Origin: Verrucomicrobiales bacterium
GTDB taxonomy: Bacteria > Verrucomicrobiota > Verrucomicrobiia > Limisphaerales > SXTU01
Length of the DNA: 34,088 nt
Assembly (NCBI GenBank): GCA_005791875.1
Contig: SXTU01000030.1
Span: forward strand, 1-34,088
Direction of reading: 5' to 3'
In this document: positions 3,644-4,953 of the stretch, one piece after another
Layout of the letters: each line of letters starts with the position of its first letter
Numbering within the stretch: position 1 is the stretch's first letter
The notes under the pieces: model-generated
The model's input: the letters and a program-made list of their open reading frames with translations, nothing else
What the model was told of the DNA's origin: nothing
The model's database searches: none
Program-made: the position numbers and the translations under genes

Positions 3644-3667
3644 TCACCCTCACCCCGGCCCTCTCCC
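3644..3667. repeat. left half of a split REP-like palindrome
   Basis: The sequence CCCTCACCCCGGCCCTCTCC is one arm of the palindromic element seen complete at 26714-26738, 26817-26841, 31235-31259 and 31367-31405. Here the second arm is missing next door. A matching arm (GAGGGAGAGGG) appears at 4853-4863, just past the IS110 element, so the palindrome seems to have been split by the insertion. Confidence 0.65.
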
Positions 3668-3679
3668 TTGTATATTGTT

Positions 3680-3895
3680 TTTCGTCTTCCTTGTGCGGCC
3701 TTCAGCCGAACGGGAAGATGGAGCCGCCTTCCCCCCTGCAGGGGGGAAGGCGGCGGCGCGCGCGGGGACGTTCCGCCCTAGCCTACGTGTAAACGTGAGG
3801 CGTCTCGGAGCCTGTCCCGCGTGTGCCTGTTGGTCCAAACTCGAACCGTTGCCTGAGCACTCCGGCCTGCAGCCGGAGGGGCTCGTATCCTCGCA
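3680..3895 (+). ncRNA. candidate IS110 bridge RNA
   Basis: Three structured parts follow each other. A 5' stem-loop at 3686-3717 has CTTCC/GGAAG and CGGC/GCCG stems. A two-stem loop at 3761-3821 is closed by CGCGGGGAC with GTCCCGCG (one bulged G) and has an apical hairpin at 3781-3801 (GCCTACGT/ACGTGAGGC). Its open strands hold GCCCT (3775-3779), identical to the left target ending in the CT core (3658-3662), and CTCGGAG (3804-3810), the reverse complement of CTCCGAG across the right junction (4849-4855). A third part near 3845-3878 contains ACCGTTGC (3845-3852), identical to the right end of the element (4842-4849), then a CTCCGGC/GCCGGAG hairpin. This matches the order target loop, then donor loop known for IS621. 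The second donor guide is not obvious. A TATATT at 3671-3676 could be a -10 box. Folded by eye only; RNA ends are approximate. Confidence 0.5.
3723..3754. repeat. perfect 32-base palindrome
   Basis: Two 16-base arms meet without a spacer around CTGCAG (left arm GCCGCCTTCCCCCCTG). It lies inside the left end of the IS110 element, between the 5' stem-loop and the target-loop-like structure. It could be part of the bridge RNA fold, or a separate short palindromic element that landed in the insertion sequence. Confidence 0.75.
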
Positions 3896-3898
3896 AGT

Positions 3899-4840
3899 AT
3901 GAGTCAGAACAACCCGTCCATCCTCCATGTCGGCCTCGATGTAGCCAAGGATTCCTTGCAGCTCGATCTCGCCGGCCAATCCCACGCCCTGGCCAACGAT
4001 GCCAAAGGGCACGCCCAACTCCTCAAACTCCTGCGCCCCCATCCCGGTGCGCACGTTGTCTGTGAAGCCACCGGCGGCTATGAACAACCCGCCGTGCGGG
4101 CCCTCCACGCCGCCCAAGTCCCCGTCAGCATCGTCGAAGCCGGACGCGTCCGCCACTTCGCCAAAGCCAAGGGCCAGCGCGCCAAGACCGACCCCATCGA
4201 TGCCGCCGTGCTCAGTGCCTACGGCCGCACCTTCCAACCCGCCGCCACGGCGGCCCCCACGCCCCAGCAAGCCCGCCTGGCCGAACTCTCCACCCGGCGC
4301 CGGCAGCTCCTCACCACCCTCACGGCCGAGTCCAACCGCTGCGCCCACTACCTGGACCCACTCTCCCTGCGCCAGGCCCGCGACCTGCGCCGACTCCTGG
4401 AAAAGCAAGTCGCCGCCTGCGACGCCGCCCTGGCCGAAATCATTGCCGCCGATGAGGCTCTCAAAGTGCGGGCCCAGCGGCTCGACGCCATTCCCGGGGT
4501 CGGGGCCGTGACCGCCGCCACCGTGCTGGCCGAACTGCCGGAGCTGGGCCACATCAGCGATGCCGCCGCGTCCGCCCTGGCCGGGGTCGCCCCCTTCAAC
4601 CGCGACAGCGGCCAGCAAACCGGGGGCCGCCACATCGCCGGAGGGCGCAAGCCCGTGCGCTGCGCACTCTACATGGCCGCGCTGAGCGCTGTGCGCCACG
4701 ACGCCATCCTCAAAGCTTTTTATCTGAAGCTGCGGGCGGCGGGGAAGAAGCCCAAAGTCGCGCTCGTGGCCTGCATGCGCAAACTGGTCATCCTCATGAA
4801 CCGGCTCCTCAGCAACCCAAAATTCCAACTTGCAAACTAA
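3899..4840 (+). CDS. IS110-family DEDD recombinase (transposase)
   Basis: 313 residues, a full-length short member of the family. The N-terminal RuvC-like domain shows the DEDD set: Asp14 in GLDVAKDS, Glu56 in VCEATGGYE, and Asp98 and Asp101 in KTDPIDA. A helical middle region follows. The C-terminal Tnp domain has [20 protein letters not shown], then [17 protein letters not shown], where Ser237 fits the catalytic serine known in IS621, then RCALYMAAL. These enzymes form a tetramer and recombine DNA at a short core using a bridge RNA that pairs with both target and donor. The ATG at 3899 follows directly after the candidate bridge RNA. The frame is intact and all catalytic residues are present, so the copy may be active. 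The long minus-strand open frame across it is a shadow. Confidence 0.95.
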
Positions 4841-4953
4841 CACCGTTGCTCCGAGGGAGAGGGAGGGCGCTCCACGCCGGCTCGTGAACCCGAGCGCTCC
4901 CGTTCGCCGGGATGCGGCCTGCGTGCTCCCTCTCCATGAACCTCCCGAGGAGG

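Follow-up and report, generated by a model that had tools for sequence, protein, structure and literature searches.

The window, that is, the whole 34,088-nt stretch of DNA analysed here, is one contig (SXTU01000030.1) of the 4.7-Mb draft genome of a Verrucomicrobiales bacterium, assembled in 314 contigs. It contains an IS110-group element that extends from core to core over positions 3667–4850 (1182 bp plus the second core; this and all features described below are given on the forward strand). As the preliminary description of the locus had noted, the transposase/recombinase gene (3899–4840) is an intact open reading frame, here of 313 amino acids. The encoded protein carries both domains of the IS110 group, the DEDD RuvC-like domain PF01548 (E = 1e-19) and the Tnp domain PF02371 with its conserved serine (E = 1.4e-19). 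Among solved structures, the IS621 transposase is the closest to it in sequence (E = 2.8e-35), and residues D14, E56, D98, D101 and S237 align with the five catalytic residues (DEDD and Ser) named for IS621 in PMC11208158. The noncoding left end is 232 nt long (3667–3898) compared with 10 nt for the right end (4841–4850), the long-left layout of the IS110 group. In IS1111-type elements, by contrast, the noncoding region usually lies downstream of tnp and subterminal inverted repeats are present (PMC11187229), the group being defined with repeats of 7–17 bp (PMC11208160); here the RNA region is upstream of tnp, as in the IS110 type, and downstream there are just the 10 nt of the right end.

The element is present as a single copy in the draft genome, both by DNA and by protein, a count to be read with the tendency of draft assemblies to collapse repeats. 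Related proteins are encoded in 37 of 387 genomes sampled from the phylum (E threshold 1e-20) and, at 1e-40, in 22 of 320 genomes of the order and 3 of 11 genomes of the family, its own included. Among viral contigs, five stretches fitted a pattern, and none of them encoded a relative.

The element ends required one revision. The left end had initially been placed at 3663, and we reject a left core at that position. The motif CTTGTAT, which begins at 3667, starts in register in all 12 aligned full-length leaders, the window included (L056 lacks one base and L060 has one change), and IS621 starts with the identical letters. Since this end is common to the leaders and to IS621, we assign the left core to the CT at 3667–3668, 4 nt away from the original position. 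The CTTGTAT end was absent from four other near relatives (contig ends or truncation), and no CTTGTAT-like motif was found in some of the more distant model matches. The right end comprises the left donor ACCGTTG followed by the core CT (4842–4850, with the core at 4849–4850), as checked letter by letter.

The flanks of the element, when joined, read CCCTCTCCCT-CCG-AGGGAGAGGG and form the tip of a REP-like palindrome. Its left part (3647–3666), the first 20 letters of the repeat, occurs with at most two mismatches at 262 places in the same genome (136 + 126), and a control with the pattern read backward gave none; the right part (4851–4873) is given by the letters of the right flank. Insertion of IS elements into REP sequences has long been known (PMC1525189). 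A query with the right flank revealed no clean empty site in 11 genomes of the genus. The matches were partial or dispersed, and the best of those outside the element's own genome lay about 710–775 nt into the query.

The region upstream of the transposase is predicted to specify a bridge RNA of roughly 230 nt, from about 3683 to about 3912. The claim that a foldable RNA precedes the transposase gene is borne out by the predicted fold of the leader, at −131.5 kcal/mol (z = −7.18), as none of 200 shuffled sequences reached so low an energy. The predicted RNA begins with a 5′ stem-loop (3681–3722), drawn from the fold, in which two of the eight pairs counted have both sides changed among relatives. 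It is followed by a second, extra hairpin (3723–3754) with a perfect 14-bp stem, all 14 pairs of which have both sides changed in a set of 12 sequences. Next comes the target-binding loop (3755–3827), whose outer helix is paired in 96.9% of cells, with 9 of 14 pairs changed on both sides; it scores 134.6 bits with the covariance model R1, the window being itself one of the 14 sequences in that model. Within this loop lie the left target guide UUCCGCCCU (3771–3779), an apical stem-loop (3781–3801), a GU linker, the right target guide CUCGGAG (3804–3810) and the dinucleotide CC (3811–3812) at the handshake position; its first C can form a pair with donor G7, and the second is unpaired with T6. 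The core part of the donor-binding loop (3839–3904) is closed by a helix between ACUC (3839–3842) and GAGU (3901–3904). It holds the left donor guide ACCGUUGC (3845–3852), an apical stem and then a right donor guide (3887–3897) that is split into AU (3887–3888) and CAAG (3894–3897). The predicted RNA has two internal loops, with the target loop before the donor loop, as is characteristic of IS621-type bridge RNAs.

The single-sequence fold stops at 3898 and so lacks the donor closing helix, which comes from comparison: it is conserved, being paired in 92.9% of cells among 14 relatives, and none of its pairs carries a double change. Over the helices of both loops, 93.6% of cells are paired in the 14 aligned relatives, and the covariation value of 0.454 compares with 0.186 for shuffled alignments (0 of 500 as high) and with at most 0.125 for slid ones; the double changes are located in the target-loop helices and in the donor apical stem. 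The two 5′ hairpins taken together give 0.466; shuffling yields 0.215, with 0 of 500 as high, and sliding no more than 0.204. On one of the five measures applied to them, that of further pair types, 14 of 500 shuffles did as well as the real alignment. Rfam produced no match at the gathering score in the window and four sub-threshold matches (E up to 1) over 3600–3960. The IS621 locus likewise yields no Rfam bridge-RNA family, and therefore the absence of such a match in the window says little.

Other leaders show additional features at their 5′ side. Five other verrucomicrobial IS110 leaders (L023, L024, L025, L026 and L035) have in their 5′ part a longer hairpin that contains the conserved motif GAGAATGGG..CTCGTCGGA; this hairpin is possibly an extra RNA domain or a protein-binding site. 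In L064 (1–205), extra GC-rich inverted-repeat DNA seems, by eye, to lie between the left-end-like TTGTAT and the 5′ stem-loop.

With the left core at 3667, all four guides of the window fall into the IS621 order. For IS621, this order of guides, a right donor guide split in this way and these handshake positions have been described (PMC11208160, PMC11208158). Shifting the left end changes the register of a guide and does not undo the initial reading. The pentamer GCCCT, earlier proposed as a target guide, is indeed present both at 3775–3779 and at 3658–3662, but those letters are 4 nt out of register. The in-register left target guide UUCCGCCCU faces CCTCTCCCT (3660–3668) with five Watson-Crick pairs out of nine, two rU:dG wobbles and two mismatches. 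Outside the core it matches at three of seven positions (p about 0.24 with equal base use), which on its own is not beyond chance. This weak guide is not alone, as a score of 3/7 or lower is shared by 12 of the 39 elements, counting that of the window. Either the window element may have been inserted at a tolerated rather than an ideal site, or its left guide may have drifted since. The right target guide matches 4849–4855 at 7/7 positions, in agreement with the reported identity of CTCGGAG (3804–3810) with the reverse complement of that stretch; five of five non-core bases match, with a chance probability of about 0.001 (equal base use). The target guides fit the insertion site, CT core included, strongly as a group and weakly for the left guide of the window.

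The donor guides fit the element ends on both sides. The left donor guide pairs at 8/8 positions with 4842–4849 (p about 1.5e-5 with equal base use), and the letters ACCGTTGC noticed earlier at 3845–3852 are identical to those at 4842–4849. As to the second donor guide, which the preliminary description had left as not clear, it can now be assigned to the split AU and CAAG, which can pair with AT and CTTG, respectively, of CTTGTAT (3667–3673). The handshake base U in the window faces C in the target, and the C of the RNA can pair with donor G7. The main weight for the bridge-RNA reading comes from the relatives.

To compare guides with targets, we relied on a covariance model of the two loops, which (E threshold 0.001) found matches in 34 of 384 genomes sampled from the class and 35 of 320 genomes of the order. 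The aligner was given 64 loci and aligned 65 matches, leaving aside L102–L105 and some places without a locus. To define the ends, the CTTGTAT motif was used on the left side and the donor guide on the right, so that the target guides played no part. Rows without a usable left target (26 of 65) or right target (35 of 65) were left out of the respective counts, and 17 elements have both targets. The shuffles of targets keep composition and leave relatedness in place.

Co-variation of guides with targets across relatives had been proposed as a check on the initial reading, and it is evident for both target guides. The right guide matches the element's own target at 134 of 150 non-core bases (30 elements), as against a mean of 47.0 and a maximum of 74 in 20,000 shuffles. 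Counted per element, all five non-core bases match in 18 cases, four in 8 and three in 4. When duplicate guide–target pairs are removed (n = 24), the count is 104 of 120 versus 37.1 for shuffled targets, with a maximum of 61. For the left guide, 173 of 273 bases match over seven non-core positions in 39 elements, compared with a shuffled mean of 99.8 and a maximum of 129. A case in point is L056, whose protein is 69% identical and whose guides are unlike those of the window; they match their own targets at 9/9 and 7/7 positions. L129 and L130 (both in G498) have the same guides but different left targets, which have little in common apart from CCTCT at the core.

The same alignment is informative about handshake and donor positions. 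Pairing between target position 7 and the base that follows CAAG is seen in 26 of 36 elements (3 of the 39 left-target rows have no letter in the handshake column), against a shuffled mean of 13.0 and a maximum of 24, just as the handshake model predicts. Variants of the left donor guide follow the right ends in relatives: of the 50 elements whose sequence is long enough, 27 have their own left donor plus CT and 23 lack it, while other variants were found in 1 of 500 tests. Donor guides change together with right ends. Co-variation of guides with both targets and ends supports the initial view of a functional-looking bridge RNA in a verrucomicrobial IS110 element.

One of the systems nearest to this element is IS621, an E. 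coli member of the IS110 group. The two share the PF01548 and PF02371 recombinase with DEDD and Ser residues, the RNA region in the left end, the order of 5′ stem-loop, target loop and donor loop, the CT core, the right donor CTTGTAT, the split right donor guide AU..CAAG and insertion into a REP-type palindrome. The split AU..CAAG guide is also found in L143. On the other hand, the window has the second hairpin and 88 nt between the core and the target loop, whereas in IS621 the distance is 49 nt and the fold contains one 5′ hairpin. The right target guide of the window matches over 7 nt, compared with 4 nt, extendable to 7, as described for IS621; the extension to 7 is reported to have improved specificity (PMC11208160). 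Moreover, in IS621 the RNA layout fits into the 177 nt preceding the ATG, a length equal to that published for the RNA, whereas in the window the start codon lies inside the predicted RNA. Applied to IS621, model R1 recovers only part of the donor loop (5.5 bits, E = 0.29). The window element also resembles ISEc21 (IS110 type) and the IS1111-type seekRNA systems, in which an RNA from the long noncoding region is described as selecting the target by matching both strands (PMC11187229).

Taken together, these data lead us to propose, with a probability of roughly 93%, that the window holds an IS110-group insertion sequence that moves, or has moved, by bridge-RNA-guided recombination; the estimate concerns kind and mechanism, and not the present activity of this copy. 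The element would excise as a circle, and its joined ends may create a promoter (TTGCAA-17-TATATT) driving transcription of the bridge RNA (about 3683–3912, roughly 230 nt). In the next step, the target-binding loop would pair with the tip of the dispersed REP-like palindrome, its left guide contacting the bottom strand and its right guide the top strand, and the donor-binding loop would pair with the joined element ends. The DEDD/Ser recombinase would then cut and exchange strands at the CT core. Sequence comparison supports the element ends, the RNA helices, the co-variation at guide–target, guide–donor and handshake positions and the catalytic residues; transcription, the RNA ends, complex assembly and activity are inferred. 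The assignment to the IS110 bridge-RNA elements is well supported, with an RNA that varies in layout, its expression and activity being presumed. In the literature we found no paper combining IS110, Verrucomicrobi and bridge RNA, a search whose scope stopped short of supplementary data sets, most subscription journals and bioRxiv. The element provides co-variation of guides with targets and donors and at the handshake for Verrucomicrobiota, for which no bridge-RNA paper was found.

The promoter proposed for the circle junction would be assembled from a −35-like TTGCAA (4830–4835) in the right half and a −10-like TATATT (3671–3676) in the left half, brought to a 17-nt spacing when the ends are joined. 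Together they have 9 of 12 consensus letters. As a group signal this is weak: the mean for the junctions of 19 elements is 7.3, and shuffling the right ends still gives 6.8. In comparison with the integrated state, which has a mean of 6.4 over 18 elements (L080 excluded), the junction scored higher in 13 of these elements, equal in 4 and lower in 1.

As for the present state of this copy, it might be a decayed one, immobile, with the RNA and ends preserved as a fossil. Such decay is compatible with the proposed kind of element and bears on present activity only. It would agree with the single copy in the draft genome, the left target guide at 5/9 plus two wobbles, and the decayed appearance of some relatives, such as L059 with its in-frame TAA. 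However, the full reading frame with its catalytic residues, the recognisable ends, the right target guide at 7/7, the left donor guide at 8/8, the complete split right donor guide and the formed helices all argue against it, and we consider decay rather improbable, although a possibility to be kept in mind.

The position of the start codon bears on a second alternative. The first G of GAGU (3901–3904) is the last base of the transposase start codon; through the donor closing helix, which reaches into the first codons, the start codon would sit inside the bridge RNA. There is no other in-frame ATG near the start in the window and no GTG or TTG before D14 (codons 3899–3940). The closing helix may extend further into the reading frame: over 61 elements, the duplex energy is −6.43 with an element's own strands and −5.47 with swapped ones, none of 5000 swaps being as low, whereas for the 25 best-scoring elements, which are very alike, the values are −6.36 and −5.97 (591 of 5000; not significant). 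Among 19 chosen elements, the window included, the AUG of the arm is in frame with the transposase in 13. It is lost or out of frame in the other 6 (AAG in L022 and L062, CTG in L071, out of frame in L063, L069 and L074), all of which keep GAG(T/C) and most of the downstream letters, L063 least. Preservation of the 3′ arm despite the lost AUG points to a constraint on the RNA. Of 62 matches, 16 have their first in-frame ATG here, 2 earlier and 23 later, the rest having no usable frame or ATG; therefore, the start-codon feature belongs to the nearer clade.

One could accordingly ask whether the structure upstream of tnp serves mainly to regulate translation, with the guide matches secondary. 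A precedent is ISPpu9 of Pseudomonas putida, which, like the window element, inserts into REP sequences and has a long structured leader upstream of tnp; folding of its 5′ UTR reportedly reduces the translation of tnp, and the proposal is that the fold buries the ribosome-binding site and that the antisense RNA Asr9 relieves it (PMC8450116). The start codon inside the predicted structure would fit such a role. Yet co-variation of guides with targets and donors far above that of shuffles is unexpected of a leader alone, and the 3′ arm is largely kept in the six elements in which the AUG is lost or out of frame, which makes a mainly regulatory structure very improbable. Still less probable is that a protein recognises the palindrome and sets the target, with the guide matches arising by chance or as a by-product of GC-richness: the target is a common GC-rich palindrome and the left guide of the window matches no better than chance, but composition-keeping shuffles of targets reach at most 74 of 150 matches, against the 134 observed.

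Within the bridge-RNA reading, folding of the guide would, we infer, hide the start codon. A tentative and speculative extension is that in this verrucomicrobial clade the bridge RNA might also control, as a switch, the translation of its recombinase. The transcript would be either a folded guide or an unfolded messenger, binding of the recombinase would stop translation, and the extra hairpin might be a second element facing protein or ribosome. The start codon within the guide RNA makes a coupling between guide folding and recombinase dosage directly testable.

Several other repeats and genes accompany the element. The REP-like palindrome CCCTCACCCCGGCCCTCTCCC has copies in the window at 3647–3667, 5267–5287, 26730–26750, 31251–31271 and 31367–31387, and the left flanks of L081, L115, L132 and L135 also lie in a similar repeat. 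At 4954–5017 there is a MITE-like, perfect 26-nt inverted repeat (arms 4954–4979 and 4992–5017); matches to it lie on its own opposite strand and elsewhere in the genus. The 146-nt segment 5364–5509 is another dispersed palindromic repeat, with an 80% match to its own opposite strand and numerous matches across genomes of the genus. Elsewhere, the window encodes a sulfatase beside a DUF1501 protein (12894–15871), a PSCyt1/PSCyt2/PSD1 protein (16859–20725) and an AcrB-type transporter (27963–31247), an ordinary gene set for this phylum.
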